From positions 1 to 64,000 of the forward strand of contig SUVL01000005.1 in assembly GCA_015062005.1 (NCBI GenBank): DNA of 64,000 nucleotides, given 5' to 3'. The notes below the pieces were generated by a model. The model was not told where the DNA came from. It did not search any database and worked only from the letters and a program-made list of their open reading frames with translations. Shown piece after piece: positions 326 through 27,478 of this stretch (within the stretch, counting starts at the first letter, position 1; the number at the start of each line of letters is the position of its first letter). This DNA comes from Akkermansiaceae bacterium. GTDB taxonomy: Bacteria > Verrucomicrobiota > Verrucomicrobiia > Verrucomicrobiales > Akkermansiaceae. Made by a program: the position numbers and the translations under genes.

Positions 326-1708
326 CCGCCATTCAGTAACACAGGCATCAGAGAGTGGCACCCACGGACTACTAGGAACTGGCAGACCTGATGAACCCGC
401 CATTCAGTAACACAAGCATCAGCGAGTGGCGCACCGCTGTGCCGGTGGAGCTCTCCGGGGTGACCTGCCGCCATTCAGTAACACAAGCATCAGCGAGTGG
501 CGCGAGTTGAGTGAGATTTACCCGACGTATTGAGTTATCCGCCATTCAGTAACACAAGCATCAGCGAGTGGCGCTCTGTACCATGAGGGGCAATCTGACA
601 TTGCGCTACCGCCATTCAGTAACACAAGCATCAGCGAGTGGCGCGATTTCCGTTGCCTAAATTCAATGACGCGATTTATCCGCCATTCAGTAACACAAGC
701 ATCAGCGAGTGGCGCGATATGCTTGCAGTGAATCCTGACGCAGCCAACCCGCCATTCAGTAACACAAGCATCAGCGAGTGGCGCCCCGCCGGGCTCGGGG
801 TTTAATCGTTTATCGGCTTCCGCCATTCAGTAACACAAGCATCAGCGAGTGGCGCATAGCTCTATTTCCCATATCTTTAATCTCGCCCGCCGCCATTCAG
901 TAACACAAGCATCAGCGAGTGGCGCCGTGTTAAACTACCGCAAGGTGTGCCCGGGATAGACCGCCATTCAGTAACACAAGCATCAGCGAGTGGCGCGTGC
1001 ATGATGTTCTTCATATCTCTAATCTTTTGTTCCGCCATTCAGTAACACAAGCATCAGCGAGTGGCGCGGGGACTAGAGGGGGATTATAGGGGGTGTATAG
1101 GGCCGCCATTCAGTAACACAAGCATCAGCGAGTGGCGCAGGATTTTGAGGGCAGTGGCATGGAGCCGTTCCAGCCGCCATTCAGTAACACAAGCATCAGC
1201 GAGTGGCGCGCCGTGTTGGCCGTAGCCATAACCATGTCCGCTTCCGCCATTCAGTAACACAAGCATCAGCGAGTGGCGCTAACTTACACCGTGGAAGAAA
1301 ATGCTTAATTTCAACCGCCATTCAGTAACACAAGCATCAGCGAGTGGCGCCCGGCGAATTGCAAAAGCTGGTGGCTGCGCACTTGCCGCCATTCAGTAAC
1401 ACAAGCATCAGCGAGTGGCGCCCCGCAAGCGCATCTTCCTGTTTGGTGCGCCGATGTGCCGCCATTCAGTAACACAAGCATCAGCGAGTGGCGCTGTCAT
1501 CTGCCATGTGGCAGAGCACTGGGACGACCCCCGCCATTCAGTAACACAAGCATCAGCGAGTGGCGCCATGATGACATCTGGACATATTGGACAGGGGCAC
1601 CCGCCATTCAGTAACACAAGCATCAGCGAGTGGCGCACCCCTCCCGCCTGTTCAAAGAGGGCGATATTGTTCCCGCCATTCAGTAACACAAGCATCAGCG
1701 AGTGGCGC
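326..1708 (-). CRISPR. CRISPR array, type V-B, 20 repeats and 19 spacers
   Basis: Twenty 36-bp repeats begin CCGCCATTCAGTAACA on the + strand and end GCGAGTGGCGC. Starts: 326, 397, 468, 539, 609, 680, 749, 820, 890, 961, 1032, 1103, 1174, 1244, 1315, 1386, 1459, 1531, 1601, 1673. Spacers are 33-37 bp, mostly 35. Nineteen repeats are identical. The leftmost (326-361) has three changes (344 A to G, 352 C to A, 360 G to A), marking it as the old, trailer end. The leader therefore lies on the right, next to cas2, and transcription runs leftward on the minus strand, so the crRNA repeat begins GCGCCACTCGCTGATG and ends ACTGAATGGCGG. Nineteen near-perfect repeats suggest a recently active array. Confidence 0.97.
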
Positions 1709-1805
1709 TGCGGAACTTCTAGAGGTTTAAAAAACAGCAATTCCACTTGCTAATAACGAGCACCGATGTCGCTTACACTGGAATCAGGCGTTCGTTGCGG
1801 TTTCT
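1709..1805 (-). promoter_or_regulatory. Candidate CRISPR leader
   Basis: This AT-richer stretch joins the last perfect repeat to the tracrRNA region. Array polarity, with the degenerate repeat at the far end, places the leader here. Read on the minus strand it has a short T-run (plus 1729-1734, AAAAAA) shortly before the first repeat. No confident -35/-10 pair was found, so the array may be read from here or by read-through from the tracrRNA promoter. Confidence 0.5.
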
Positions 1806-1867
1806 CTCGTCAGCTAACATACTGAACACGAGCAACCGCGAGCACTGTCTAAGCATAGCGAAGTCAA

Positions 1868-1939
1868 TCACACACTCGCAGATGTCAATATACTGAAGTT
1901 TGCCGAAGGCGGTGACAAACGATAGGCGGATATAACCAA
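1868..1939 (-). ncRNA. Candidate tracrRNA of the Cas12b system
   Basis: Read on the minus strand, this region is complementary to the crRNA repeat in separate blocks: CCGCC (1929-1925) can pair with the repeat's final GGCGG, TTCAGTA (1897-1891) with TACTGAA, CATC (1884-1881) with GATG, and GCGAGTG (1879-1873) with CACTCGC. Between the first two blocks lies a hairpin with arms GTTTG and CAAAC plus an inner CCG/CGG pair (1920-1898). This order, short anti-repeat, stem-loop, second anti-repeat, is the layout of known Cas12b tracrRNAs. A promoter ends just upstream, predicting a start near 1938. The 3' end cannot be placed. Family layout is known; pairing is seen; function is inferred. Confidence 0.75.
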
Positions 1940-1944
1940 GGGAG

Positions 1945-1973
1945 AGAGTACAGGGAAACAAACCTAAAGTCAA
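1945..1973 (-). promoter_or_regulatory. Promoter for the tracrRNA
   Basis: On the minus strand TTGACT (1973-1968) and TACTCT (1950-1945) are 17 bases apart. The -35 box overlaps the last codons of cas2. The sequence GTTGACTTTAGGT around it is nearly the same as GTTGACTTCAGGT in the cas12b promoter. Confidence 0.65.
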
Positions 1974-2267
1974 CTAAATAATTGTGATTCTCGTACGTTT
2001 AAGGTAAGGAAGCCCAATAAACTCGATATTCAGGGGAGTAGATTCATCGTCTGTGCCCATATCTACGAAAATAACCTGGTCGCAGGCATGATTAATGATT
2101 TTGTTCAACTCCATCTTCAAACGAGCCAGCATAGTCGCATCCAGAGAAGACTCAAAAACCGAACATTGAATACGAGAACCAAACGATTCGCAAACTTTAG
2201 CAGTCTGGCGTAACCGTTTCGGGTCAGATATATCATAACACACAAGGTAGCGACGGCGACGGCTCAT
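1974..2267 (-). CDS. cas2: CRISPR-associated endoribonuclease-fold protein Cas2
   Basis: Cas2 forms the dimeric core of the Cas1-Cas2 spacer-integration complex. The 97-residue product starts MSRRRRYLVCYDISDPKRL, with the typical first strand ending YDI and the conserved Asp after it, and has the usual length. The ATG at 2267 overlaps the cas4-cas1 stop codon as ATGA, so the two are translationally coupled; an open frame extends further upstream to 2411, but that part lies inside cas4-cas1 and is not Cas2-like. It is the last protein gene of the operon before the tracrRNA and array. Confidence 0.95.
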   Translation of the reverse strand: MSRRRRYLVCYDISDPKRLRQTAKVCESFGSRIQCSVFESSLDATMLARLKMELNKIINHACDQVIFVDMGTDDESTPLNIEFIGLPYLKRTRITII

Positions 2268-3937
2268 CTTGTAACAAAACCATGAAAGAATTGGACATCT
2301 CCTCGACAAAACCGCCAGAGCTGCCGCATTTGCACCTCCATCATACGGCGATAACTCATTCGATACCCAAAAGCCGGATGAGTAACCTCCGTATCCAGTC
2401 GCCGCGCCCACGCCCGCCAGAATTGGCGACGGCCGGAATCCTTCAACATCGTGCCGCGCGCGGTTTCTACAAAATCAGCGCGAGATATTTCACCTCGATT
2501 TATGAGAGAGATGACCACGGAATCCACAACAAGGGGACGGAACTCCTCCATCATATCCAACGCCAAGGCGGGACGTCCATATCTCGGGCTATGAAAAAAT
2601 CCGAGAAATGGGTCAAGTCCAACGGTATATGCCATTCCGGTCAATTCCTTGGAAAGGATAGAATAGCCAAGAGACAACAATGCATTCACCGGATCACGGG
2701 GCGGGCGGCGGTTGCGTCCGTCAAATCCAAATCCCATGGGATCTTTGAGCATGGTAGAAAAATGTGAAAAATACAAGGCGGCGGACATCCCCTCGACCCC
2801 GCGCAGGGCTCCCAGACCAGGCTGCAAGGAACACGAATCACGCAGCCGCACCAGCTCCCGCAACACCGAATCTGGAGCATTACCATTGCGCATCAGAATA
2901 ACCCGCTGATTATGGATTTTAGATTTAATGATTTCTGAAGCTATTACCAGACGTTTATCAGGCAATGTCCACATTCTGTATTGTCCCATGCGAGCATCAA
3001 CCCCGGAAAGCGGCAAACCACCAGACATTCCAATAAACCGCCCTGCCGCACTGAAATAGGAAACAGGTATAGAATGTTCCATCAGCGCCGTAACAGCCTG
3101 TGCACTTACCTGCACTGGACCGTACAAGTAAACAGCCTGGAGCTGGTGCAGGGGATGACGCGCCACAAGTTCACCCTCCAGGCGGACTTGAACTTCGCCG
3201 CCCCTGATACCCACTGCCGCCCGATTATTCTGTACCACCAGGATTTCCCCCTTATCATTCTCTGGCATCGGGGGCCGCGGTGTTTCCGATTCCGTTTTTC
3301 TTCCGACATCGCCAGCAGCCCACGCTTTACTTTCCAAGGGCAGGCAAATGGGATAAGCCGAACACGCCAGACAGCGGGAAAAGTGTTCAACCGGCGGTGG
3401 GCAGTTTCCCTGCGCTGCCACCTCAATAGCAGCTGCTATATATGCCTTGCACTTATCAAAAAGCTCATCCGTTAACTCCAGGGAGACGTGTCGCTTAACG
3501 GCAGCATAATACACGCTTGCAGCACTAACTTGCACACCGGACTCCGCTAACAGCAAAGCGTATGCAGCTAACTGGACAGCATCGTTTTCCTTAACCTCCC
3601 AATCGCCGGAATCGTTGCGCGCCGGATGCCCTTTTTTATAATCAACAAGACTTACGCAACCCGTTTCAGCATCCTTTTCCAACAAATCCACCACACCTGC
3701 GATGCGCAATTTTTCCGAAGACAAGGCCACCGACCGCAAAGTACCTCCCTCTGCGGTCAGCGCCTCGTGTTTCAAACGGCTTGGGTCATCCACTCTGGAA
3801 TGTATGGCATCACCCTCAACGGTATCTTCGTTAGCAACAAAGAGATTCTCCACCCACTGCAAGTAAAACAAGCGCGGGCAATAAACGTAGTTATGCAACC
3901 GTCGAACAGGTAAAAGCGGAATTTCTTCAGAACTCAT
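2264..3937 (-). CDS. cas4-cas1: Cas4-Cas1 fusion, spacer acquisition enzyme
   Basis: This 557-residue protein joins two adaptation enzymes. Residues 1-205 are Cas4, a RecB-type nuclease that trims new spacers: iron-sulfur cysteines C20, C189, C192 and C198, nuclease residues D84 and the D99-Y-K101 motif, and Q122/Y126. From about 225 it is Cas1 integrase, with active-site candidates E382 (RGVEG), H449 (GFFHSPRYG) and D461 (LALDMMEE). The fusion is a hallmark of type V-B (and some I-U) loci. It overlaps cas12b upstream and cas2 downstream by ATGA junctions. All catalytic residues I looked for are present, so acquisition should work. Confidence 0.95.
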   Translation of the reverse strand: MSSEEIPLLPVRRLHNYVYCPRLFYLQWVENLFVANEDTVEGDAIHSRVDDPSRLKHEALTAEGGTLRSVALSSEKLRIAGVVDLLEKDAETGCVSLVDYKKGHPARNDSGDWEVKENDAVQLAAYALLLAESGVQVSAASVYYAAVKRHVSLELTDELFDKCKAYIAAAIEVAAQGNCPPPVEHFSRCLACSAYPICLPLESKAWAAGDVGRKTESETPRPPMPENDKGEILVVQNNRAAVGIRGGEVQVRLEGELVARHPLHQLQAVYLYGPVQVSAQAVTALMEHSIPVSYFSAAGRFIGMSGGLPLSGVDARMGQYRMWTLPDKRLVIASEIIKSKIHNQRVILMRNGNAPDSVLRELVRLRDSCSLQPGLGALRGVEGMSAALYFSHFSTMLKDPMGFGFDGRNRRPPRDPVNALLSLGYSILSKELTGMAYTVGLDPFLGFFHSPRYGRPALALDMMEEFRPLVVDSVVISLINRGEISRADFVETARGTMLKDSGRRQFWRAWARRLDTEVTHPAFGYRMSYRRMMEVQMRQLWRFCRGDVQFFHGFVTR

Positions 3938-6900
3938 GTAGGAATATCATCCGATGTGTCGTTTTCATCAGTATGCAGCAATTGTTCCACCAAGCGCGCG
4001 TCTATGCCTGCATTTTTCAACTGCTGAATATTGAACAAATGGCACATCTGCCACTGTTTTCTCTTCATTATCCCCCATAGCGTTTTCCCGTAAGCCAGAT
4101 AAGCCCTCGTCTCTGCATTACCATAGGCAGCAAAGTACTCATCTTTCCACTCGGAAGAAACAGCAAATGCGGATATCTTATTTCCTTCGGGCTGAATGGA
4201 TTTCAACTTGGTCAAACTCCACCCTGTCTTCAAGCTTTTCTCGCGAGCATTGTCGCACACCGGCACAAAACCAGCCTTCTTCATCTCCATACGGACCCGG
4301 TGCAGCAAGTGCAGCGATTCCGGGGCAGCCAATCCTCGCCAAGCGACATTCGTAGCCGCATTCATATCAGCATTGCGCAAGGTAAACTTCCCCCCTTTCT
4401 GAGATAAGAACAGCTCACCTCCATTTGCCAGCTCTCCTCCTTTTGTCAAATGCGGCAATACCAAAGTCACCTTTTTCGTCTTGCTAGCATTCACAACTTC
4501 ATCCCATATGGCTTGATATACAGCTGCCGCCTTACATTCGTTTCCTTTTCCATTTCGTTGCAACCACTTCAGATACTCCGGCTTCAACATCACGGGACGG
4601 AAACCTGGTTCCGAGGTCATTGAATCAAACTTGGAAGTGTAATGAGCATGGGTAAAGACAACCGGAATGCCGAATATTTCCTCAAGGAGCTGCGTCACCT
4701 TTGCCACAATCTGCCGGTGAGCCCAACGCATCAACCCTGAGTTCTCAAGCGGAGCCCGGTCCAGAGAAGTCAGATAACGGCTGAGATTCTCCATTACGAC
4801 AAAATCTACAGGCTCTCGCCCGTGAATACGCTCATATTCGCCATGAATAACATCCAGCCCACCTGAATTCTTGTGAGGACGAGAGGATTTCAAACGAACG
4901 CCCAATGCCTGAGCAACGATGTCGTGAGCAATCAAATTGACGCGTTGCTCGCGCATATTCTCGATTTTTTCCAAAATCTCAGGACATGGATCAATGACTT
5001 TTTCATCTTTTAACCTGCGTCCAAATGTAACAGATTCACCAGGAACAAATGATAACACTTTCCCCATGGACTGCAACAGCTGCCTGAGCGTTTCAAGCTG
5101 AGTCAAACGGGCAACAGACAAACCACCGCGATGGAAAACTGGTCGATGCGGTATACCGTCCTCTTCTGTTAAGCGCATCACGCCGGAGCCCTGCCAGCCC
5201 TTGCGTCGCTCCGGCTCCCATTTCCAAGACCCGTGTTTGCGAGGCAAAATAAGGCTTGTTACTCGTTCTGCATACTTAGGCAACATACTGCGCAGCTCTT
5301 CAGCTGCATCCAGAACCCTCTCATAAACCTCATCTTCCTGGTGCGCTTCCAGAAGAACACAGACTCCGGGTATTATCTCTGCGTACGCAAAATAATCCGC
5401 CATGCGCTTTAACACAGCAGGTTTTCTACCAGGATCCTTAAGCCCGGACAAGAAAGACAAGTATGTTTTCAGTCGACTTGTCAAACTCTTAAAGCTTTTG
5501 AGCGTTCTATTGCCCAGACGAAGCACATCTTCAGATTCATTCTCATCAAACTGAGCACCAGCAGCTTCAATAATCAACTTGGCAATTCTTCTATCTTCAG
5601 GGGAGGCAAGACTTACGGCTGGAATCTTTTTATCGCCAACTCGACGAGGTTGCTCCCCCGGAAGGCGAGATAAACCTTGCTTAATCACATAGCCATACCA
5701 TTTAGCGTTTGAGCTATCCCCTATCAAGCGACCTATTAGCTCATCACCTCTGGAGTTAGAAGAAGTAGAGCAGGTTGAGACACGCAACAGTGACCAGGCA
5801 ACCGAGCTACGAAGACCTAAATCTATGCCCAACACTGTAAACTCCTTTTCCTGTTCCCACCAAGGGCGATTCTTACCTTTGTAGGTAGCAGGCCAGTGCA
5901 AATGAAGTTTCTCATCCCTGCCTCCGAGGAATTGACCGGCCCAACGAGCAGCCTTGCCAAGAGACTTCTGAAGAGCAGACACATCCAGTGACACGGGGAA
6001 GTTCAGGTAATAACAAGCCTCCGAGCCCTGCCCCCAAACCTGCAAACCAATGGCAGGCGTACGTTCCAGGCGAACAGGTGCAATATCATCCCCCAAAGCC
6101 TTCATCATCGGTTGCAACCACGGCAGGGTCGTATTTTCTCCCTTTTTAGGAACCATCCATTTGCCAGCGTCCTGCCCCATCTCATCCCTCAAAAATCTTG
6201 GAGCTGAGAAAGTAACACGAATCGAGTCCGTTTCCCAATGTCCTTTAGCATTCCGAACGACCACCTGCATACGCAAACCACCCTCACAACCGGGAATATA
6301 CTCACACCCCTTTCCATTTCCAAAATTGGAAAGATCGGAATAAATCATCTGGCGAGGAGATGCTACCACATCCGCAGCAGTCACCCTGACATCACGGCTG
6401 TATTTCTCAACCTGCCCGCACAAGTATTGCCAGTTGGAAAAATCACGCAGTATATTCTTGGACCTAGGAAGTTTCTCATCTTTCAATGCATGATAATCAT
6501 GCCAGATAGGCCGATACTCATCCTGACACAGCGCTGCAAACAGCACTTGGGAGCCAAATCTTTTGCTTTTAGCCTGATATTCACGAACAATCTTGGATAA
6601 ATCGTGGCTGCTGCAGTCCCCCGTGAGCTCCCTTTTCAACCACAGAGCCCTCACTTCCTCATAATCATTCAGTGTTCGTGAGGAAATGTGGTATTCAGTA
6701 ACAGGGTCAGGCGAAATTTCCGCTACAAGTTTTTTGAGAAGCTCAAACCGATAATCACCCCCTAATACAGCCACAGTCTTTTCCTCATCAGGTTCCACAT
6801 AATCCTTCGTTTTTTTACCTCTCTCAACATATTCTAACTGCGCAACATACTTCGCCCGCTCTGCATCACGTTCTTTCGTTTTAAGCTCAAAACCATGCAG

Positions 6901-8016
6901 CGTTTTCAAAGCTTCCTTAAACGCAAGAATATCCCATTCTTTGGAATACATGCGGTTATCCGATGATTCCCAGTTAGGCAATGCCGAAAAACCTTTGTAA
7001 ACGTAGCCTCGTTTTCCGCGAGCCAATATGAGCGGGTCATTTTCCAGGCTGAAGCAATCATACTCTCTTACTTCATCCGTTTTTTTAGGCTTCTCTTTTC
7101 CAAGTTTAGACGCCAGATGCGCAGCAGAAATGCGGCCAGGATAAAACATGAAGTATATACCCGCCTGTTCCACATCTACGGAAATTCCCCGACTACTCTT
7201 AGCCAAGCGAAGACCTTTTAAAGGCATTCGATTAAGAAGATCCTGCCGCATTTGCTCACGAAAACCGTCAATTTGCACATACTTGGGGAGAGTTGCTATT
7301 TTCAAGTTCCCATTATCTAAAGATGACAATAATTTATGAATAGAAGTTATTACCTTTTCCTCCTGTTCTTCAGGATCATAATACAAGGGCTCATCATGAT
7401 TTTCATTAGGTATTGTTTTCACAACCCACGATAAGTCCATTTCCTGCGCCAAAGCGTATAACTCCTCATCAGAAACATCATCGCGATTAAGCTCCCTCAG
7501 CAGCTTCTGTTTCCCAGAATTCGCCTTACGTTCTTTGATACTATAATCAAAATTACCTTCAAAATCCGAATTACACAATTTAGGAAGAAGCTCTCGTCCT
7601 TGTTGTTGAATAGCTCCCTCCCCCTTCTGTGTTTGTTCAATCACGTAATGCTCGACATACGGCAAAACATCCAGCCTATCGCACCCTTCATAAATATGTG
7701 CCACGGCATCATCAAACGTAACTCCGTCTGCCAGACTCAAAGTACGTGCTATGGAGCGCTGCAACGTACAAGCACCAACCTTACTTCTAGGCAAATCTTC
7801 CCATATTGCCCTCACCTGTTTCTTGAATCTACTTCCCAGAGTCTCTTTCCCATCTTCCGCCATCCCTGCCAACGCGACCAAGTGGTAGTTGACAGCATCT
7901 TGAAAAAGACGATTCGTTCTTTCCAATGCGGCTAATGCAGATTCCTTATCCTGCGGCAGGTTCTCATCTTCAAAACGAGCCTGCACAATACGTCCCTGAT
8001 AAATACGAGTAGCCAT
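3934..8016 (-). CDS. cas12b: Type V-B effector nuclease Cas12b (C2c1)
   Basis: Cas12b is an RNA-guided DNA endonuclease needing crRNA and tracrRNA and cutting both strands with one RuvC site. The three RuvC motifs are intact: D732 in VLGIDLGLRSS, E1076 in VVMENLSRYLTS and D1217 in NADMNAATN. Around RuvC-II the text LMRWAHRQIV followed by SKFDS is typical of Cas12b and not Cas12a. From memory the closest known sequence is the Opitutaceae TAV5 protein, which shares ENLSRYL-S and the ending DDIP. At 1,360 residues it is longer than the roughly 1,100-1,130 of Bacillales orthologues. It is the first gene of the operon and its base composition is AT-richer than the flanking core genes. Confidence 0.95.
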   Translation of the reverse strand: MATRIYQGRIVQARFEDENLPQDKESALAALERTNRLFQDAVNYHLVALAGMAEDGKETLGSRFKKQVRAIWEDLPRSKVGACTLQRSIARTLSLADGVTFDDAVAHIYEGCDRLDVLPYVEHYVIEQTQKGEGAIQQQGRELLPKLCNSDFEGNFDYSIKERKANSGKQKLLRELNRDDVSDEELYALAQEMDLSWVVKTIPNENHDEPLYYDPEEQEEKVITSIHKLLSSLDNGNLKIATLPKYVQIDGFREQMRQDLLNRMPLKGLRLAKSSRGISVDVEQAGIYFMFYPGRISAAHLASKLGKEKPKKTDEVREYDCFSLENDPLILARGKRGYVYKGFSALPNWESSDNRMYSKEWDILAFKEALKTLHGFELKTKERDAERAKYVAQLEYVERGKKTKDYVEPDEEKTVAVLGGDYRFELLKKLVAEISPDPVTEYHISSRTLNDYEEVRALWLKRELTGDCSSHDLSKIVREYQAKSKRFGSQVLFAALCQDEYRPIWHDYHALKDEKLPRSKNILRDFSNWQYLCGQVEKYSRDVRVTAADVVASPRQMIYSDLSNFGNGKGCEYIPGCEGGLRMQVVVRNAKGHWETDSIRVTFSAPRFLRDEMGQDAGKWMVPKKGENTTLPWLQPMMKALGDDIAPVRLERTPAIGLQVWGQGSEACYYLNFPVSLDVSALQKSLGKAARWAGQFLGGRDEKLHLHWPATYKGKNRPWWEQEKEFTVLGIDLGLRSSVAWSLLRVSTCSTSSNSRGDELIGRLIGDSSNAKWYGYVIKQGLSRLPGEQPRRVGDKKIPAVSLASPEDRRIAKLIIEAAGAQFDENESEDVLRLGNRTLKSFKSLTSRLKTYLSFLSGLKDPGRKPAVLKRMADYFAYAEIIPGVCVLLEAHQEDEVYERVLDAAEELRSMLPKYAERVTSLILPRKHGSWKWEPERRKGWQGSGVMRLTEEDGIPHRPVFHRGGLSVARLTQLETLRQLLQSMGKVLSFVPGESVTFGRRLKDEKVIDPCPEILEKIENMREQRVNLIAHDIVAQALGVRLKSSRPHKNSGGLDVIHGEYERIHGREPVDFVVMENLSRYLTSLDRAPLENSGLMRWAHRQIVAKVTQLLEEIFGIPVVFTHAHYTSKFDSMTSEPGFRPVMLKPEYLKWLQRNGKGNECKAAAVYQAIWDEVVNASKTKKVTLVLPHLTKGGELANGGELFLSQKGGKFTLRNADMNAATNVAWRGLAAPESLHLLHRVRMEMKKAGFVPVCDNAREKSLKTGWSLTKLKSIQPEGNKISAFAVSSEWKDEYFAAYGNAETRAYLAYGKTLWGIMKRKQWQMCHLFNIQQLKNAGIDARLVEQLLHTDENDTSDDIPT

Positions 8017-8039
8017 CGTGATATGCGTGTTACCTTACA

Positions 8040-8071
8040 TGGTAGACTACCACAAGAACACCTGAAGTCAA
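8040..8071 (-). promoter_or_regulatory. Promoter of the cas operon with a palindromic operator-like site
   Basis: On the minus strand TTGACT (8071-8066) and TAGTCT (8049-8044) are 16 bases apart, placing the transcript start about 20 bases before cas12b. A perfect 13-bp palindrome, TGGTAGTCTACCA (8052-8040), covers the -10 box, as expected for a repressor site. Confidence 0.6.
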
Positions 8072-8263
8072 CAAAAAATTATCAATAGACGTCTATTTCG
8101 CAAACACGTCACTAATCTTTGACGCATTGCCCCCCGAATGCGATAGAGAGCAGAACAAAACGGATATACCGGCAGTAGGCTAACACATGCACATCGCAGA
8201 GTCAAGATTTTCAAACTTCTGGGTTGCATCAACATCAGCCCAACTGCAACCTCCCACAACAAG
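8072..8263. other. Non-coding gap between cas operon promoter and DUF2828 terminator
   Basis: No gene is seen. The stretch separates the cas operon from the terminator of the upstream DUF2828 unit, so the two systems are transcribed separately. Confidence 0.5.
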
Positions 8264-8288
8264 CAAAAAGCCACCCCCGGGTGGGGGC
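8264..8288 (-). terminator. Terminator after the DUF2828 gene
   Basis: Minus-strand hairpin CCCCC-ACCC-GGGGG followed by TGGCTTTTTG, about 60 bases after the DUF2828 stop codon. Confidence 0.65.
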
Positions 8289-8350
8289 CTGGGGGTGGTG
8301 ATGGGTGGGGGATGGGCTTGTGACTTTTGGGTTGAATGTGTGAGGGGGGA

Positions 8351-9895
8351 TCAGGAGGCCAGGGTGATGGGCTGGTAGCGGTCGGAGTTGAGGACGCTGA
8401 GCATGAAGTGCTCCGGGGTTTTATCGGAGAGAATCTGCTCGAACATGCCGGGCTTGCAGCCGCCGATGAGGGTGGTGCCCTGCGCATCGCGGGTGACGGG
8501 TACGTTGCCGTAGTTGCACCGGGCGGCATTCCAGAAGACGAGGCGGGGCATGGTGTAGCCGGCGGCGGCGTAGCGCTGCGCAATCATCTGACAGGCGGTG
8601 GGGTTGCCCGCGCCCTGCACGCAGTAGTCGAACTGCATATCGGAGATGATGATGATGCACCGGGGCATCTGCTCTGCCGGCAGGTGGGCCTGCACGGCGG
8701 AGCGGAGCACGAGGTCGAACACTGCCTCCAGGTTGGTGTTCATGCCCCAATCCATGCCGAGCATGTACTCCACCTTCTGCTGCAGCGGCCAGGCGGGGTC
8801 CACTTCCACCAAGGAGGGCTCGGCGGAGAAGGTGATGAGCTTATCCTTGAAGATGCCGGTGTTGCGCTCGGCCACGTAGAGGCCCAGGGACATGGCGACA
8901 TCGACTGGACTGGGATTGCCACCAGAGAACATGGAGCCGGAGACATCCACCACGGCCAGCCAGTTGGCACCGGCGGCCTCGCCGAAATAATCCGGCAGGG
9001 AACGCCACATGTTGTCCAGCTGCAGGAGCTCGAGCTCACTGGCGTTCTCACGGCATTTGTTCATGATGTCGTAGGGGTAGAGGGTGCGCACGTTCACCTT
9101 GGGTTCTGCCTCTTCCACCACGTAGTTTTCCACGATGAGCGACTTGTGCAGCGACTCTACATAGGCGCGGTAGCGCTCTCCATCGTTCTTCATGAAAGCC
9201 TTGCGGTATTTCACCCCGGCGTTGGAGGGCACGGCACTGTAGCTGAAGGTGTAGTCCCGGCGGGTAAGGCGGGTCTCCAGCACGTCGATCTGGCGGCGGA
9301 GGGCCACGAGGGTCTGGCGGTACTGCTTCTCGCTGAGATCGAGGGCGCGGTAGAGGCGCCGGGCCAGCGCGCGGGTGGCGGCAGAGGAGGTGTTGCACGA
9401 GGGCATCCACTTGGCCAGCAGGGAGATGGCGGCCTTCCGTCCCTGCTCTGCCAGGGTGGCCTGGTCTGCCTTCAGCTGCTCTGCCACCAGGGAAACGATG
9501 GCGGAGTCCAGCGCGGCAGAGACACCGAAGAGGGCGAAGAGGTCATCCCAGCGACCGTAGTCGGGGATGTGGCGAATGATGCCGCTGCGCAGGAAGAGCT
9601 CCGTGTCCAGCTCCGCCACGGTGCGGATACCGGCGCGGAATACCTCGCGCTCTCCCTGGCCGCCGTTGCCGCGGATATCGCGCAGGTAGAACAGGCAGCG
9701 GAGGGTGCCGAGCTTGTCCTCGCGGTAGGCGGCACGCACAGCCTGGGGCACATCGGCGGGGGTCTTACGCAGGGCGGCTCCGCCCGAGAAAAGGTCCAGC
9801 AGGGCGGAAAGGGTGGAGCGGCAGGCGGACATGCCGTTGGTGGTTGTGGTGGAGTTGTTGCACTCCTTCATGGCATTGAATAACGGATTGGTCAT
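8351..9895 (-). CDS. DUF2828 protein with C-terminal vWA domain, Ro60-like
   Basis: A 514-residue protein of the DUF2828 family. The N-terminal helical part carries the family words LRCLFYLRDIRGNGGQ and IPDYGRWDDLF; the C-terminal vWA domain has a complete metal site, D317-V-S319-G-S321, the GMNT threonine near 387 and IISDMQFD. These match plant DUF2828 proteins (ITFS..PSL, WGMNT, SDMEFD) that I remember. A helical N-terminus plus vWA is also the plan of Ro60/Rsr, which binds Y RNAs. Directly upstream on the same strand are four Y-RNA-like modules, so RNA binding is a strong inference. I chose the ATG at 9895; a TTG at 9937 would add 14 residues without family resemblance. Confidence 0.85.
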   Translation of the reverse strand: MTNPLFNAMKECNNSTTTTNGMSACRSTLSALLDLFSGGAALRKTPADVPQAVRAAYREDKLGTLRCLFYLRDIRGNGGQGEREVFRAGIRTVAELDTELFLRSGIIRHIPDYGRWDDLFALFGVSAALDSAIVSLVAEQLKADQATLAEQGRKAAISLLAKWMPSCNTSSAATRALARRLYRALDLSEKQYRQTLVALRRQIDVLETRLTRRDYTFSYSAVPSNAGVKYRKAFMKNDGERYRAYVESLHKSLIVENYVVEEAEPKVNVRTLYPYDIMNKCRENASELELLQLDNMWRSLPDYFGEAAGANWLAVVDVSGSMFSGGNPSPVDVAMSLGLYVAERNTGIFKDKLITFSAEPSLVEVDPAWPLQQKVEYMLGMDWGMNTNLEAVFDLVLRSAVQAHLPAEQMPRCIIIISDMQFDYCVQGAGNPTACQMIAQRYAAAGYTMPRLVFWNAARCNYGNVPVTRDAQGTTLIGGCKPGMFEQILSDKTPEHFMLSVLNSDRYQPITLAS

Positions 9896-10066
9896 GGTTG
9901 TGTTAACTATTAGGTTGTGTGTGGTGATTACAGGCAAATCCGCTTTCTTCTGGGGTGTGGAGTCAATCCGCCTATCGTGCCGGCGCGGGCGCTGCTTCGC
10001 AGCAGGACCTGTTGGCTGTCAGGGTAGTGCTTACTTGTACTTTTTTCTCAGATGAGAACTATTTGC

Positions 10067-10158
10067 CAAGACACAGGGGGCTTCGCGAGAAGCCCCCACT
10101 TTCATCTGTTTAACAAACAGAGCCTTTTTCAGGGCGTGGTTTGCTGTGTGTGTCTTTG
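10067..10158 (-). ncRNA. Y-RNA-like module D (hairpin type)
   Basis: Read on the minus strand it opens CAAAGACACACACAGCAA and closes TGTGTCTTG, so AAGACACA pairs with TGTGTCTT (8 bp). Inside are CTGTTT-GTT-AAACAG and a 9-bp GC-rich hairpin with arms GGGGGCTTC and GAAGCCCCC. The opening motif is the same as in modules A-C, but there is no tRNA mimic. The GC-rich hairpin could instead act in termination, although no T-run follows it. Confidence 0.5.
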
Positions 10159-10162
10159 TGGT

Positions 10163-10283
10163 CAAGACTCCGGATATGTTTTAACGGCTCTACCGACTGA
10201 GCTACATCAGCCAAGGGGCCGACGATGGGATTCGAACCCACGACAAGTTAATCTACATAATGCGTTTGCTGTAGGAGTCTTTG
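10163..10283 (-). ncRNA. Y-RNA-like module C (permuted tRNA mimic)
   Basis: Minus-strand order: AAGACTCC; TTAAC; variable TTGTC; T-arm GTGGG-TTCGAAT-CCCAT; acceptor arm CGTCGGC; loop CCCTTG; acceptor arm GCTGATG; TA; D-arm GCTC-AGTCGGTA-GAGC; GTTAA; GGAGTCTT. All cloverleaf stems pair: acceptor 7 bp with two G-U pairs, anticodon-position stem GTTAA/TTAAC 5 bp, T and D arms complete. The ends leave through the anticodon position into an 8-bp outer stem, and the acceptor is a closed hairpin, so it cannot be aminoacylated. That is the design of bacterial Y RNAs such as Salmonella YrlA. The pairing is seen; the Y RNA identity is inferred. Confidence 0.82.
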
Positions 10284-10357
10284 AGAGGGGTGAGCCACCC
10301 TGCCGCTTTCGCGGCCCGGGTGGGGTTAAGGGTTGGCGGGGATGGCGCAGACGAAAT
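10284..10357 (-). other. Linker between modules B and C with a GAAA-loop hairpin
   Basis: On the minus strand CCACCC and GGGTGG enclose CCGC-GAAA-GCGG, a GNRA-capped stem-loop ending just before module C. It may be a processing or stability element of the polycistronic RNA. Confidence 0.45.
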
Positions 10358-10456
10358 CAAGACACCTTTGTGCCGCACTTATGTACCTGTCGTACGTGCA
10401 TATGGCACAAACTCTTTTGGGGGGTTAACCAGTGCAGTTGCTGGATGTGTCTTTTG
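10358..10456 (-). ncRNA. Y-RNA-like module B (long-hairpin type)
   Basis: Opens AAAAGACACATCCAGCAA and closes GGTGTCTTG on the minus strand, giving a 7-bp outer stem AAGACAC/GTGTCTT. Inside, TTTGTGCC pairs with GGCACAAA, continued by GCAC/GTGC and GTAC/GTAC, forming a long stem. There is no T- or D-arm. The shared opening motif is the reason for grouping it with A, C and D. Confidence 0.5.
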
Positions 10457-10473
10457 TTCGCCCACGGTGGGGA

Positions 10474-10570
10474 CAAGACTCCGTTTTTTTTGCTGCTCTA
10501 CCATTGAGCTACTCAGGTTGAGTGAGGATTTGAACCCCAAACACGCATCGTATTGCTGTACGAGTCTTTG
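10474..10570 (-). ncRNA. Y-RNA-like module A (permuted tRNA mimic)
   Basis: Minus-strand order: CAAAGACTCGTACAGCAA; T-arm TGGGG-TTCAAAT-CCTCA; short acceptor-like hairpin CTCA-ACC-TGAG; TA; D-arm GCTC-AATGGTA-GAGC; A-rich run; CGGAGTCTTG. AAGACTC pairs with GAGTCTT in the outer stem. T-loop and D-loop sequences are those of real tRNAs, but T precedes D and the acceptor is only a 4-bp closed hairpin. It is the first module after the promoter. A tRNA scanner would miss or misread it because the order is permuted. Confidence 0.8.
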
Positions 10571-10738
10571 GAAATCTTCATCGACCGGGCAGCCCGGCAC
10601 ACGCGGCATCATCCCCTGGCAAGGGACACGCATGCAGACAGCTGATCACAAAGACGGCATCGTTCAACGAAAGTTGTGGGTAGTAGTCGGGGAACCTTCC
10701 TCAATGCATCACGGCCTCAATCAAACGAATGCAGGGCG

Positions 10739-10766
10739 AATTTAGCACACCCCGGACCATTGTCAA
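10739..10766 (-). promoter_or_regulatory. Promoter of the Y-RNA-like array
   Basis: On the minus strand a perfect TTGACA (10766-10761) and TAAATT (10744-10739) are 16 bases apart. It predicts a transcript start near 10731, about 160 bases before module A, reading through modules A-D toward the DUF2828 gene. The 160-base leader contains no open frame I recognise. Confidence 0.7.
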
Positions 10767-10828
10767 GCATTTTTTCTCATTTTGTGTAAAAAAAAATCAC
10801 ACATGTCCCAAAGTTTGAGTACTAATCT

Positions 10829-10930
10829 CGATAAATTGATGTTTGTCGTTGTCGGGGCACGGGACTTCAGTCCCGAAATAACGGTGCTTCCAATCGGGAC
10901 TGAAGTCCCGTGCTCCGACAGAGTTCCCCC
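10829..10930. repeat. Dispersed palindromic element, copy 1
   Basis: Starts CGATAAATTGATG. Two long arms, GCACGGGACTTCAGTCCCGA and its complement, flank a loop with AATAACGGTGCTTCCAA, with GTCGG/CCGAC outside. Near-identical copies lie at 31971 and 46104. It separates the Y-RNA promoter from the purC region. The stretch from 10931 to 11127 has further inverted GGCTCATT/GAGCCG pieces and no gene. Confidence 0.9.
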
Positions 10931-15795: not shown

Positions 15796-16569
15796 ATGCG
15801 GAAGAAACTGGAGAGCAAAGTACGCGAGCTTCACAAAAACAAAACATGGAGTCTCCCTTACTTATCTCTGGTTCCCCGCCGGATTCAGGAAGCCCAGCTG
15901 CATTTCATGGGGGCTGAAAAGTACCATAAGCTCACCACATGGGAAAAGATTCTTCTTTTACTTATTCCGGCAGACCAATATGTAAGCAGCAAGGAGCTTC
16001 GCGAGTTCTTCCCCATCCACCAGGCAGACATGGGAAAACTCCTCTCCAAACTCCGAGACGAAGGGTATCTGCAGGACTCCGGCAAAAGCAATGCTAAAAA
16101 ATACAGTCTGAAGGACAAGCTGGGAGAAGAAGTCCGGAAAGCATATACGGCTGTCAGTTTCATGGCACCTAAGGACGATTTCATGGCACCTAAGGACGAT
16201 TTCATGGCACCTAAGGACGATTTCTTGGCACCTAAGGGCGATTTCATGGCACCTAAGCCATCCAATACAGCAACCATACCAGCCCACAAACGAGTCATTC
16301 AGGAACTGGGCATACCTGCCCCGCTCGAAAAGCAGATTGAGGAATACAGGCGTAAAGACCGCCAGGCTCCGGAAGGAACCATGTCGCTCATCCTGGACAT
16401 CTGCCATACTCGATGGGTAACGACACTGCAATTGTCCATACTGCTCAACCGCGAAGTCCGACCGCTCCGCAAAAACTTCCTCCAACCCGCAATCCTTTGC
16501 CGGAAACTGGAACACCTGTACCCGGAATCACCTAAAAATAAGAACCAGGCCTACCGCACGGTTGAATAA
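15796..16569 (+). CDS. Winged-helix-like protein with a seven-residue tandem repeat
   Basis: I do not recognise this 257-residue protein. Residues about 45-110 look like a winged helix (WEKILLLLIPADQYVSSKEL, then LLSKLRDEGYLQ). A low-complexity middle, residues 122-154, has five units of F(M/L)APK(D/G)D. The C-terminal part (TMSLILDICHTRWVTTLQLS) looks like a second winged helix, as in replication initiators or RecG-type C-terminal domains. It overlaps the SNF2 gene by 8 bases, suggesting co-translation. A DNA-binding partner of the helicase is possible but unproven. Confidence 0.6.
   Translation: MRKKLESKVRELHKNKTWSLPYLSLVPRRIQEAQLHFMGAEKYHKLTTWEKILLLLIPADQYVSSKELREFFPIHQADMGKLLSKLRDEGYLQDSGKSNAKKYSLKDKLGEEVRKAYTAVSFMAPKDDFMAPKDDFMAPKDDFLAPKGDFMAPKPSNTATIPAHKRVIQELGIPAPLEKQIEEYRRKDRQAPEGTMSLILDICHTRWVTTLQLSILLNREVRPLRKNFLQPAILCRKLEHLYPESPKNKNQAYRTVE
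16159..16257 (+). repeat. Five in-frame 21-bp tandem repeats
   Basis: Units start at 16159, 16180, 16201, 16222 and 16243 and encode FMAPKDD, FMAPKDD, FMAPKDD, FLAPKGD, FMAPK. The first three are identical at the DNA level, so copy number could change by slippage without shifting the frame. Confidence 0.95.
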
Positions 16570-23490: not shown

Positions 23491-26058
23491 ATGGCACGCT
23501 ACAAGGCACCGCAGGATGACTACCCCGAGCCCGCACCGCGAGAGCGGGTGGATTACCGCGTGCAAGCGCCACCCCGCCGCCGCCAGGCCCCGCCCCGCAG
23601 CAGCCATGATGACTACGAGGAGTACTACGAAGAACCGGCGCCAGCCCCACGCCCCGCACCCCGCCGCGCCTGGGAGAGCGAGCCCGAGGCCTACGAACCG
23701 CTGCCGGAAGATGTGAACCCCATCCGCGAGTTCCAGAGGCCACCCCGCAAGGGCACCGGCTGTCTGCGCGCCGTGTGGCTCATGTTCACCCTGCCGCTGC
23801 GCATGGTTTTCTGGGCGCTGCGCCACCTGCCCCGCATTGTCCTCATCCCCACAAAAATCATACTGAGCCTGGCCTTTGCCGGGCTGGTGCTGGGCAGCAT
23901 CCTGGCCATCATCTACGGCGTGAAAGCCGAGCGCTACGACCTCTCGCAGGTCACCCGCATGCCGGAGCGCACCATCGTGCTCGACCGCAAGGGCAACGAA
24001 ATCGGCACCCTGCACGGCGAGAACCGCCGCAGCATCTCCAACATTCACGAAGAAGTGCCGCGGTACATGATAGATGCCCTGGTAATGCAGGAAGACCGCT
24101 CCTTCTGGACGCACGGCGGCATCGACCCTCGCGGGCTGCTGCGCGCGGTGGCCCAGGTCTTCAAGCACCACCGCACCACCCAGGGTGCCTCCACCCTGAC
24201 CATGCAGCTGGCCAAAAACACCTACAACCACCACGAGCGCGATTTCGATGCCAAGTTCACCGAAATGGCCCTGGCCCGCCGCATCGAATCCACCTACGAC
24301 AAGGAAACCATTATCACCTGCTACCTGAACCGCGTATTCTGGGGGCATACCTTCCTGGGGCTCAAACAGGCAGCTTACGGCTACTTTGACAAACTGCCGC
24401 GAGACCTCACCGTGGGCGAGGCGGCCATGCTGGCCGGCATCATCTGCAGCCCCAACCAATTCTCACCCTACCGCAACCCTTCCTCCGCCAGGGTGCAGCG
24501 CGACAAAGTGCTCAAACTCATGTACGAGCACGGCAAAATCACCCGCAATGAGTACGAGGACGCCCTCAAGGAACCGCTGGTGACCCGCAAACCCGAGCGC
24601 CGCGGCAACGACAACTACGCACTGGACCTGGTTCGCTCCGAGGTGGACCACCTGCTCTCCCTGCTGGATTCAAAGGATGAGCGGCTTAAGGAAGAGGTGG
24701 TAGTCTCCGGCGGGCTGCGCGTACAGACCACCCTGGATATCGACTTGCAGGATGACGCCATGCGCGAGATTGATACGCGGCTCACCGCCATGTTCGAGAA
24801 ACAGAAGGGCTGGAAACACCAGACCCGCGCCCAGTTCAAGGCACTGAAAGCCAAAGCTTCCCCGGAAGAAGCAGACAAACTGCGCCCGAAATACTTGCAG
24901 GCCGCCTGTGCCGTCATCGACAACGCCACCGGCGCCCTGCTGGCAGTGGTAGGCGGACGCGACAGCACCGAATCCCCCCTGAACCGGGCGCTGCAAAGCC
25001 GGCGCCAGGTGGGTTCGGTTTTCAAGCCACTGGTGTATGCCGCCTATTTCGAGAGGGGCTACGGCCCGCGTTCCCTGCTGTCGGATAACTCCATCATGCG
25101 TGGCGAAATAGCCGGTGCACCCCGCTGGAGACCGCGCAATTCCGATGGCCGGTTCACCGGCAACCACCCTGCCTCATGGGGGCTGCTGAAAAGCCGCAAC
25201 ACCATGGCCGTGCGCGCCGGCAACATCGCAGGGCTGCAGAACGTCATCAACACTGCCCTGTACGCCGGTTTCCCCCGCCCTTCCAAAACACCGGGACCCA
25301 CCATCTACCTGGGCACCTGGGAAGCCTCCCCCCTGGAAGTGGCAGGAGCCTTCACCGCCTTCGCCAATGGCGGAGTGCGCCCCACGCCCTACATCATCCA
25401 GCACATCACGGATAAAGACGGCCGGGTCGTGTGGCAGAACACCCCGAGCGCCCGCCGCGTGTGCTCCACCCGCTCAGCCAATGCTGTTTCTGCCGTACTC
25501 CAGCAAATTACCAAACCGGGCGGCACTGCCGGCAGCGTGCAGCGCCTTGGCTTCAAACACCCCTGCGGCGGTAAGACCGGCACCACCAACAACTACACCA
25601 ACGCCTGGTTCTGCGGCTTCACCACCGACCTGACCGCCGCCGTGTGGGTAGGCTTTGACCGCCCCACCATGATTGCCGATAAAGCCTACGGCGGCACCGT
25701 GGCCCTGCCGCTCTGGGTAGGAATCATGCAGTGCGCCTCCGCCCGCGGCTACCAGATGAAGGGCATCCGCACCGCGCCGGCAGCCGGCCGCAACAGCGGC
25801 ATACGCCTCTGCCGCACCTCTGGTATGCTGGCCCACGCCGGCTGCGAATATGAAGGCAAGGCCTATATCGAAACCATGGCAGATTTCACCAAACCACGCC
25901 CGCTCTGCACCGTGCATGCCGAACTGGCTGAAGACCCGGATAATGACGGCGGCGTGGATGAAGTAGCCGAAGACCCGGATGCCACCCCGGATATCGATGG
26001 CTCCGCCGAAGAGCTTATCAACGCCCTGCCTCAGGACGATGTGGCAGAAGAAGTGTAA
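23491..26058 (+). CDS. Class A penicillin-binding protein (PBP1A type)
   Basis: This bifunctional enzyme polymerises and cross-links peptidoglycan. The 855-residue chain has a Pro/Arg-rich cytoplasmic region of about 110 residues, one membrane segment (about 118-150), the GT51 glycosyltransferase with QEDRSFWTHGGIDPRGLLRA and QGASTLTMQLAKN, then the transpeptidase with SVFK (active-site Ser), SRN and KTGTTN motifs. An acidic tail follows. It lies 12 bases after the SprT-like gene and 10 before the MBOAT gene. The long basic N-terminus is unusual and may bind cytoskeletal partners. Confidence 0.94.
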   Translation: MARYKAPQDDYPEPAPRERVDYRVQAPPRRRQAPPRSSHDDYEEYYEEPAPAPRPAPRRAWESEPEAYEPLPEDVNPIREFQRPPRKGTGCLRAVWLMFTLPLRMVFWALRHLPRIVLIPTKIILSLAFAGLVLGSILAIIYGVKAERYDLSQVTRMPERTIVLDRKGNEIGTLHGENRRSISNIHEEVPRYMIDALVMQEDRSFWTHGGIDPRGLLRAVAQVFKHHRTTQGASTLTMQLAKNTYNHHERDFDAKFTEMALARRIESTYDKETIITCYLNRVFWGHTFLGLKQAAYGYFDKLPRDLTVGEAAMLAGIICSPNQFSPYRNPSSARVQRDKVLKLMYEHGKITRNEYEDALKEPLVTRKPERRGNDNYALDLVRSEVDHLLSLLDSKDERLKEEVVVSGGLRVQTTLDIDLQDDAMREIDTRLTAMFEKQKGWKHQTRAQFKALKAKASPEEADKLRPKYLQAACAVIDNATGALLAVVGGRDSTESPLNRALQSRRQVGSVFKPLVYAAYFERGYGPRSLLSDNSIMRGEIAGAPRWRPRNSDGRFTGNHPASWGLLKSRNTMAVRAGNIAGLQNVINTALYAGFPRPSKTPGPTIYLGTWEASPLEVAGAFTAFANGGVRPTPYIIQHITDKDGRVVWQNTPSARRVCSTRSANAVSAVLQQITKPGGTAGSVQRLGFKHPCGGKTGTTNNYTNAWFCGFTTDLTAAVWVGFDRPTMIADKAYGGTVALPLWVGIMQCASARGYQMKGIRTAPAAGRNSGIRLCRTSGMLAHAGCEYEGKAYIETMADFTKPRPLCTVHAELAEDPDNDGGVDEVAEDPDATPDIDGSAEELINALPQDDVAEEV

Positions 26059-26068
26059 CTAATCAACT

Positions 26069-27478
26069 ATGGACTTTTCAACCGCCTCATTCTGGTGCAG
26101 CCTGCTGCCGGCCATTCTGGTTCTGGCCGCAGGAGACTACCTGCTGCGCCACCGCCCTGAAGCAAAGCAGCTTTTCCACAAGTGGCTCATGCTGCTTCTG
26201 AGCCTGGTGCTGCTGGGCATTGCCAATGAAACCACTCTGGTTATCTTCCTGAGTGTCACCATCAGCGCTTATTTCCTGTGCCGCTGGGGCGGCTCCCTGG
26301 GCATGACTGCCCGCCGCTGGCTGCTGGGCGGGCTGATTCCCTTACTCCTGCTCCCCCTCATCTACTACAAATACGGCTATTTCTTCGGCAGCGCCATCCT
26401 GCAGCAGCAATGGGATACCCTGCGCGACCTCATCATCCCCATCGGCATTTCGTTCTACACCTTCCAGGTAATCGGCTTCTGCATCGATACCCTGATGCGC
26501 AACGAACCCATGCCCAAGTGGCTGGACTACATGAACTTCTGTGCCTTTTTCCCCCAGATTGTGGCAGGCCCCATTGAACGCCGCGCCGACCTGCTGCCCC
26601 AGGTGGAGAAGATGGAACTGGCCTGCACCCGCAGCAACCTGGAGCAAGGCATTCCCTACATCATCCTGGGGCTTTTCTTCAAACTGGCCCTGGCCGATAA
26701 CCTGGCCTATGCCATGTGGGATGGCTACTGCTGGGGCAATGCGTGGATGGTTTGGATTAACAACCTGCTTTTCACCTTCCGCATCTATTTCGACTTCGGC
26801 GGATACGGTCTCACCGCCTACGGCCTGGCCCGCTGCATGGGCATCACCCTGCGCATGAACTTCCTGAGCCCCTACACTGCCTGCAATATCAAGGATTTCT
26901 GGCGCCGCTGGCACACCTCGCTCACCCAGTGGTTCACCGACTACATCTATTTCTCGCTGGGCGGCAGCCGGACGAAACGGTGGGCGCTTAACATGCTGTT
27001 TGTATTCCTCATCTCCGGCCTGTGGCACGGTGCCGGGTGGAACTTCATCATCTGGGGCGGGCTGGCTGGTGTGGCGCTTATTGTCCACCGCGTTTTCCAC
27101 AATGCAGGTCTGCGTCTCTGGGCTCCGCTGGGCTGGCTCATGACCTTCGGATACATGGTATTTGTCTGGATGTTCTTCTACATCTCTGACACAGCCTTAC
27201 TCTGGAAACAGCTGGAATGCATTTTCTCTGCCGAATGCTACAGCATACGGGAGCTGATGGCTACTCTGGGCTGGCAATACCGCGTGCTTGAGCATTCCCA
27301 TATTCCGGCAACTCTGGTTCTTTCAACTGTCTGCATCGCCATTGAAGCGGTGTCGTGGAGAAAAAACGGCACGCCCTACGGCCTGCTGCTCAGCCCCACC
27401 AGCTGCGGAATCATGGTTGCCCTCATGATTCTCCTGCACAACCCAACCCCCAACCAATTCATTTACTTTGCCTTCTGA
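26069..27478 (+). CDS. MBOAT-family O-acyltransferase (AlgI-like)
   Basis: A 469-residue polytopic membrane protein with many hydrophobic segments. IPIGISFYTFQVIGFCID, FFPQIVAGPIERR, KDFWRRWHTSLTQWF and LWHGAGWNFIIWG (with the conserved His) are MBOAT/AlgI signatures. AlgI-type proteins move acyl groups across the membrane for O-acetylation of polysaccharide. The next gene is a membrane-anchored partner of the AlgJ/AlgX or DltD kind. Placement after a PBP suggests a cell-wall or surface glycan as target. Confidence 0.9.
   Translation: MDFSTASFWCSLLPAILVLAAGDYLLRHRPEAKQLFHKWLMLLLSLVLLGIANETTLVIFLSVTISAYFLCRWGGSLGMTARRWLLGGLIPLLLLPLIYYKYGYFFGSAILQQQWDTLRDLIIPIGISFYTFQVIGFCIDTLMRNEPMPKWLDYMNFCAFFPQIVAGPIERRADLLPQVEKMELACTRSNLEQGIPYIILGLFFKLALADNLAYAMWDGYCWGNAWMVWINNLLFTFRIYFDFGGYGLTAYGLARCMGITLRMNFLSPYTACNIKDFWRRWHTSLTQWFTDYIYFSLGGSRTKRWALNMLFVFLISGLWHGAGWNFIIWGGLAGVALIVHRVFHNAGLRLWAPLGWLMTFGYMVFVWMFFYISDTALLWKQLECIFSAECYSIRELMATLGWQYRVLEHSHIPATLVLSTVCIAIEAVSWRKNGTPYGLLLSPTSCGIMVALMILLHNPTPNQFIYFAF

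Follow-up and report, generated by a model that had tools for sequence, protein, structure and literature searches.

The 64,000-nucleotide stretch of Akkermansiaceae bacterium DNA analysed here (assembly GCA_015062005.1, contig SUVL01000005.1, positions 1 to 64,000; hereafter the window) carries a tandem array of four Y-RNA-like modules on its minus strand, followed by a gene for a protein of the DUF2828 family, here called P0001. The modules and this gene are as follows.

10474..10568, minus strand: module A, a permuted tRNA mimic; outer stem AAGACTC/GAGTCTT, then CAGCAA; T-arm 10539-10523, 4-bp acceptor hairpin 10522-10512, D-arm 10509-10495
10358..10453, minus strand: module B; outer stem AAGACAC/GTGTCTT and CAGCAA, with a long hairpin in place of the tRNA body
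10163..10281, minus strand: module C, a permuted tRNA mimic; T-arm 10241-10225, 7-bp acceptor hairpin 10224-10205, D-arm 10202-10187 and a 5-bp remnant of the anticodon stem
10067..10156, minus strand: module D; outer stem of the same type and CAGCAA, with plain hairpins
8351..9895, minus strand: P0001, DUF2828/DUF7788 (PHROG 850), 514 amino acids; helical repeats and a vWA domain with an invariant DxSGS, predicted to be Ro60-like

A preliminary description of this DNA, made from the letters alone, had proposed the four modules, and all of them are present, 1-3 bases away from the coordinates first given. The 18-base opening and the closing G[A/T]GTCTTG ascribed to them hold throughout: each module begins with AAGAC[A/T]C, three bases and CAGCAA, and at its far end the complement of the opening seven bases is followed by a G, so that a perfect 7-bp outer stem forms in four of four. 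T-arm, acceptor hairpin, U8-A9 and D-arm were found in the swapped order that had been claimed for A and C, and B and D keep the outer motif with other hairpins, as expected of a common outer end with differing other ends. The opening pattern AARRYNCNNNCAGCAA (16 bases) has five occurrences in the window where 0.12 would be expected, and four of them are the array modules. The 2.43-Mb genome holds eight occurrences, four of them outside the array; at the three of these outside openings that were inspected (C44 not among them), no complement or stem follows downstream and no further module copy was found. Single-sequence folding gave modest z scores for A (-1.7) and B (-2.2) and clearer ones for C (-3.1) and D (-5.3). 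ARAGORN called no tRNA gene in the window.

Relatives were drawn from 166 loci, comprising the best 80 of 573 from genomes, the best 80 of 412 from viral sequences, five from an earlier viral scan and the window locus, of which 122 were kept once near-identical or short upstream regions had been removed; this set was selected for similarity and not drawn at random, and prophages or stray phage contigs may be among the genome loci. Linkage of such modules to DUF2828 genes is frequent. A strict finder applied to the coding strand of the 1.5 kb upstream recovered 228 modules in 101 of the 122 loci (62 of 67 from genomes, 39 of 55 viral), compared with two upstream on the other strand and 0 to 4 in ten shuffles. 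Downstream of the gene, 29 modules lie on the same strand (17 of 122 loci) and one on the other. Loci with zero to six upstream modules number 21, 34, 31, 20, 10, 4 and 2, respectively; the modules have a median length of 69 bases and are separated by a median spacer of 21.

The outer stem covaries strongly across these relatives. When nothing but the 5′ side was prescribed, 182 of the 207 motifs found in 95 loci were followed, 36-230 bases on, by their own perfect 7-mer complement, whereas swapped stems found 16.3 complements on average and at most 28 over 300 swaps. Among the 228 modules, AT, GC, TA and CG pairs all occur at stem position 6, and AT, GC and TA at positions 1 and 4; because the finder demanded pairing, this variety is biased, and the 207-motif test is the fairer one. 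In 185 of the 207 motifs, A is the last of the three bases ahead of CAGCAA (or CTGCAA). As in the Ro-Y RNA ribonucleoprotein, the 5′ and 3′ ends pair and the pairing is conserved. The preliminary description had named a lack of conservation of the paired bases in related genomes as grounds for refuting it; the covariation shows that the pairing is conserved.

A and C have their order of tRNA parts in common with 21 more modules chosen among relatives and phages. It runs from the T-arm through the acceptor 3′ strand, a short loop and the acceptor 5′ strand to U8 and the D-arm. Pairing in these 23 permuted modules (T-stem 115 of 115, acceptor 135 of 161, D-stem 91 of 92) was reached by none of 5000 swaps, a comparison in which T-loop, acceptor and D-arm positions were chosen for best pairing, favouring the unswapped value. 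The result stands for the 17 modules without near copies; one module, at 5402 in the Akkermansia locus L008, has only two of seven acceptor pairs. Remnants of the anticodon stem of at least 3 bp can be found in 19 of the 23, those of 3 bp possibly by chance. The permuted body thus corresponds to a tRNA that has been opened at its anticodon loop. Bodies in normal order also occur: ARAGORN detected a tRNA inside eight of the 228 modules (one without a clear anticodon) and none in 5 × 228 shuffles, modules in L042, L049 (two), L064 and L072 contain Rfam tRNA matches that reach the gathering score, and the acceptor stems, judged by eye from the sequences, are apparently cut to 4-6 bp. A strict T-arm, in a test that misses degenerate arms, is present in 30 of the 228 modules, in 24 of the 101 module-bearing loci, against 0.05 in shuffles.

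Module C offers a hint of how the permuted form may have arisen. Two tRNA-Gly(GCC) genes stand in tandem in the same genome, and the module can be aligned over their junction (69 columns, 52 identical, 11 gaps), in the order of one gene's 3′ half, the spacer and the next gene's 5′ half, so that the permuted mimic resembles a slice cut out of register from a tandem tRNA pair. Since tRNA arms are conserved anyway, the alignment is a hint and no proof; it nevertheless supplies a concrete candidate origin for permuted tRNA mimics. Separately, a ROOL RNA (310 bits) was observed at L049:3677-4251, within a large tRNA cluster upstream of that module-bearing DUF2828 locus.

The gene of P0001, which the preliminary description did not mention, starts about 170 bases downstream of module D. 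The protein matches Pfam DUF2828 (7.5e-24) and DUF7788 (8.4e-47) as well as phrog_850 (3.6e-120), and its best predicted-fold matches, nearly full length, are 9kop and 9l5y (Ro60 of Thermus phage phiLo) and 2nvo (Rsr), with 12-17% identity over aligned residues to these Ro60/TROVE proteins. A predicted Ro60-like protein is thus encoded beside the modules, as expected of a Ro-Y RNA ribonucleoprotein, and on the strength of the predicted fold P0001 is their likely partner. It has matches in 681 of 50,697 phage records and four of 72,556 plasmids. The array tracks the DUF2828 gene, which is found in many phages and Clostridia-type gut genomes, and is therefore not special to Verrucomicrobiota. 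The label 'Ro-like RNA binding protein' has been applied to both the DUF2828 and the TROVE families.

Taken together, these features make it probable, in our judgement, that the array encodes tandem Y-RNA-like modules that dock on a DUF2828 Ro60-like ring and carry exchangeable other ends. We infer that the four modules are likely transcribed together and then cut apart into separate RNAs, each predicted to dock through the same 7-bp stem and CAGCAA on the DUF2828 ring; through their other ends, of which two are permuted tRNA bodies and two are hairpins of other kinds, they would attract distinct partners. Structured or damaged RNA would sit in the ring, and it would depend on the exchangeable Y RNA which tRNA-handling enzyme or nuclease is tethered and hence what might be degraded, repaired or shielded. 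By analogy with the Deinococcus complex of Rsr, Y RNA and PNPase, an RNA quality-control system (PMC8394870, PMC4726728), the most likely function would be RNA quality control or repair centred on tRNA. The RNA ligase genes near some phage DUF2828 genes fit a role in RNA repair, as does the Salmonella operon rsr-yrlBA-rtcBA, which contains two Y RNAs (PMC7790460). For the large Pfam family DUF2828, this would point to a likely RNA partner marked by a simple signature for its recognition, so that what phage Ro-like proteins bind becomes testable in laboratory phages, and the arrays display the modularity of Y RNAs directly, with a constant end and an exchanged other end.

The closest known counterparts are YrlA and the other bacterial Y RNAs that accompany Rsr (RF02553; Salmonella, Deinococcus), with which the array shares an outer stem formed by the ends, a permuted tRNA-like body of T-arm, acceptor and D-arm, and an adjacent Ro60-like gene. 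Several features differ: the partner here is a DUF2828 protein, not TROVE by sequence; up to six modules lie upstream of one gene; the outer motif is GRYNC-NNA-CAGCAA with a closing G and not the YrlA consensus; and most modules have no tRNA body, some having one in normal order. Rfam YrlA, with a gathering score of 69 bits, gave 41.0 bits for module A and 33.2 for module C, and in 12 relatives it was not found at that score either (best other score 47.8, in L205). The modules are hence Y-RNA-like, as had been proposed, but the proposal that they are of the YrlA type holds for the body and not for the outer motif or the family score. Chen 2014 reportedly described bacterial and phage Y RNAs with tRNA-like domains, and its abstract is said to state that at least one Y RNA per species carries such a domain; candidates of this kind are present in the window (A and C), and a strict T-arm, degenerate arms being missed, in 24 of the 101 module-bearing loci. 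PMC12282133 credits phage Y RNAs in mycobacteriophages to Chen 2014, PMC7765460 mentions phage Y RNAs/YrlA with credit to Sim and Wolin 2018, and PMC7824862 mentions phage TROVE proteins. Judged by titles and abstract openings, no report on multi-module arrays with DUF2828 was found, although one may be in print elsewhere, and the four papers listed for DUF2828 deal, by the same criterion, with other subjects than Ro or Y RNA. Y RNAs of bacteria and phages are therefore known as such, and the array form, its own docking code and its many ends are likely a variant of them.

Phage DUF2828 loci (PHROG 850; for example Winky and CKA15) share the protein family and the module design near the gene, whereas the cassette in the window lies in a bacterial chromosome, beside purC and CRISPR-Cas, and has two permuted mimics among four modules. 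Modules were found at nine of 13 named DUF2828 phage loci, 22 in all.

Listeria cka15: three modules, at about 25,289-25,552
Mycobacterium Winky: three modules, one a permuted tRNA, downstream of the gene
Escherichia SUSP1: four modules, one permuted, downstream of the gene among tRNA genes
Campylobacter NCTC12673: two modules
Bacillus FADO: three modules
Cronobacter S13: one permuted module, downstream of the gene
Sinorhizobium N3: two modules, one permuted
Enterococcus EA1: three modules, two permuted
Staphylococcus PG-2021_12: one module, downstream of the gene

The strict CAGCAA test gave 23 plus-strand and two minus-strand matches in the 13 loci; one inside an open reading frame (ORF) of SUSP1 and the two on the minus strand of FADO were left uncounted. 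Listeria cka15, XbC2 and pEa_SNUABM_12, the last two without modules, have RNA ligase genes close to the DUF2828 gene. The DUF2828 protein CKA15_055 is listed among the proteins detected by mass spectrometry in purified particles of Listeria phage CKA15 (PMC12282133, Table 1), so that it may enter the cell together with the phage. Two tRNAs of Cronobacter phage S13 (L203:3886-4128; 121 and 113 nucleotides) were seen to resemble each other in an insert that lies in the anticodon region and includes a hairpin common to both.

TROVE loci served as a control. TROVE was detected in one of 145 genomes of the phylum, not in G000, and this protein matches 95 of 50,697 phage records; viral contigs, scanned with it, yielded no relative. 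Across nine TROVE loci (eight phage and one Verrucomicrobiota), the strict CAGCAA test gave three plus-strand and two minus-strand matches in 49,924 bases, which corresponds to background. No YrlA was detected at the Verrucomicrobiota TROVE locus, and its CAGCAA matches, two strict ones farther away and two loose ones (one of these lying 129 bases past the end of the gene and having a 7-bp stem and no closing G), are taken as background. Two permuted tRNA bodies each lie upstream of the TROVE gene in the Streptomyces phages BRock (L215:1400-1920) and GiJojo (L217:1400-1930) and the Rhizobium phage RHph_Y65 (L219:925-1225), in a layout resembling that of the DUF2828 loci; their modules lack the CAGCAA code and, by eye, share a motif of their own, TACTTC after GATGCG (GATGCGxAG) or TTGCGA. 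A fourth permuted-body match at a TROVE locus, in Vibrio SRILMA, looks like an ordinary tRNA. The tRNA-like end is thus common to the TROVE and DUF2828 systems, and the docking code is different.

In the window, the cassette of array and Ro-like gene adjoins a CRISPR-Cas locus.

3934..8016, minus strand: Cas12b, 1360 amino acids, type V-B, directly downstream of the Ro-like gene
327-8016: type V-B CRISPR-Cas locus with 20 repeats, a short ORF read as Cas2, a Cas4-Cas1 fusion and Cas12b

Close DUF2828 copies (80-100%) occur in four of 59 Akkermansia genomes and distant ones (30-38%) in another four. Array DNA has strong matches in three of the four close-copy genomes and a weak one in G260, and the cassette adjoins CRISPR-Cas in all four. 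At L007, type I-E Cas3, Cas8e, Cas11e and Cas6e follow the Ro-like gene where the window has type V-B, and L009 has the same ORFs; at the purC-side junction of the window, L007 and L009, the impression is of a constant cassette next to which the CRISPR type has been exchanged. In L183 (the L008 stretch, from G260), cas12b and cas4-cas1 ORFs and then a CRISPR array precede the Ro-like gene. The linkage is suggestive, as cas12b itself occurs in 10 of the 59 genomes, and the four loci may stem from only two or three independent events. Of 167 loci scanned for repeats, six were flagged, of which L008 alone is a CRISPR array and the other five are read as coding repeats; the scan was limited to the flanks included, and cas genes were not sought at the loci outside Akkermansia. 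The window has four modules, L009 five and L007 five (one with a stem mismatch), so that near-identical loci differ by a whole module. Three distant copies (L188-L190) have an outer motif of their own (GAACTT, TT, CTGCAA) together with a permuted tRNA.

Several observations weigh against the reading of the array as Y RNAs for a DUF2828 ring. The link between DUF2828 and Ro60 is one of predicted fold: P0001 has Pfam matches to DUF7788 and DUF2828 and none to TROVE (PF05731), and no Ro60 chain was matched by profile, leaving no direct sequence link. Upstream modules were absent from 21 of the 122 loci, and none was seen at L187, an Akkermansia locus with a 38% DUF2828 copy. The strict match within 2 kb also failed in KVP40, Aeh1, XbC2 and pEa_SNUABM_12 (four of the 13 phages), where matches in a loose scan, with mismatches and lying over a start codon or inside genes, were left uncounted. 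The transcribed region that the available part of PMC12282133 gives for CKA15, at coordinates 26,236-26,727, lies about 700 bases upstream of the three modules. As only 30 of the 228 modules have a strict T-arm, tRNA mimicry is not general among them. Finally, array DNA matches 41 of the 59 Akkermansia genomes at E 0.001; the listed matches outside the four array genomes look like tRNA genes, being confined to the T-/D-arm stretch of module C, and the best match in G260 (2e-8) is hardly better than some of these, although modules were seen directly in L008.

The main rival explanation is that the modules are decoys, whose tRNA-shaped ends distract tRNA-cutting or tRNA-modifying enzymes (for example, anticodon nucleases in phage defence) while the ring only stabilises them. 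The occurrence of two tRNA topologies, the T-arm-bearing modules, the position of modules in or near phage tRNA gene clusters and the RNA ligase genes near three phage DUF2828 genes would all suit such a role, and a permuted form, having no anticodon loop, would not itself be cut there. A decoy, however, would not need a ring protein, 198 of the 228 modules have no strict T-arm, and we know of no target nuclease, so that this explanation seems possible but doubtful. That the modules are instead 5′ untranslated structures regulating the DUF2828 mRNA in cis, and not separate RNAs, would agree with most of them lying directly upstream on the same strand; it is unlikely in view of the 29 modules downstream of the gene in 17 of 122 loci and of the downstream modules in Winky, SUSP1, S13 and PG-2021_12, those of SUSP1 lying among tRNA genes.

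A role within CRISPR-Cas, as a trans-activating CRISPR RNA (tracrRNA) or accessory RNA of the type V-B locus, is suggested by the position of the cassette next to CRISPR-Cas in the window and three more Akkermansia loci. We consider it very improbable: 8017-10800 contains no exact match to the repeat of 10 or more bases, sense or antisense, and hence no anti-repeat of a tracrRNA; a sister locus, whose protein is 98% identical, carries genes of type I-E instead; and the scan of 167 loci found an array at L008 alone, with cas genes not sought elsewhere. It is hardly more credible, and if anything less so, that the modules are decayed tRNA genes of phage origin without function. The alignment of module C over the tandem tRNA-Gly junction (52 of 69 columns identical, 11 gaps) would be compatible with that origin, but the outer and inner stems covary across phyla, which contradicts decay, and modules lacking a tRNA keep the same outer motif.

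The reading of the modules as Y RNAs for a DUF2828 ring can be extended, tentatively, to an array that displays many ends behind a single docking code, unlike the TROVE one and made up of a 7-bp GRYNC stem, NNA, CAGCAA and a closing G. The ends would be freely exchangeable and would include tRNA bodies of two topologies, with the opening at the anticodon (permuted) or at a shortened acceptor, the permuted ones being out-of-register slices of tandem identical tRNA genes in phage and host clusters. The cassette itself may have been captured from phages as a defence or repair partner beside CRISPR-Cas. We regard this fuller version as possible rather than likely.

Upstream of the array lies one further feature.

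10739..10766, minus strand: promoter-like site TTGACA-16-TAAATT, weak evidence

A perfect TTGACA promoter had been claimed ahead of the modules. The TTGACA is indeed perfect, but the -10 element is TAAATT; with a 16-nucleotide spacer and 10 of 12 positions matching, the site is weak evidence, as the shuffled region averages 0.8 such sites. Farther upstream, a match to a miRNA family at 10853-10917 was rejected as merely an inverted repeat (near-perfect, 27 bases, 10850-10920). Elsewhere in the window, an ORF at 15796-16569 contains a run of tandem MAPKDDF repeats.
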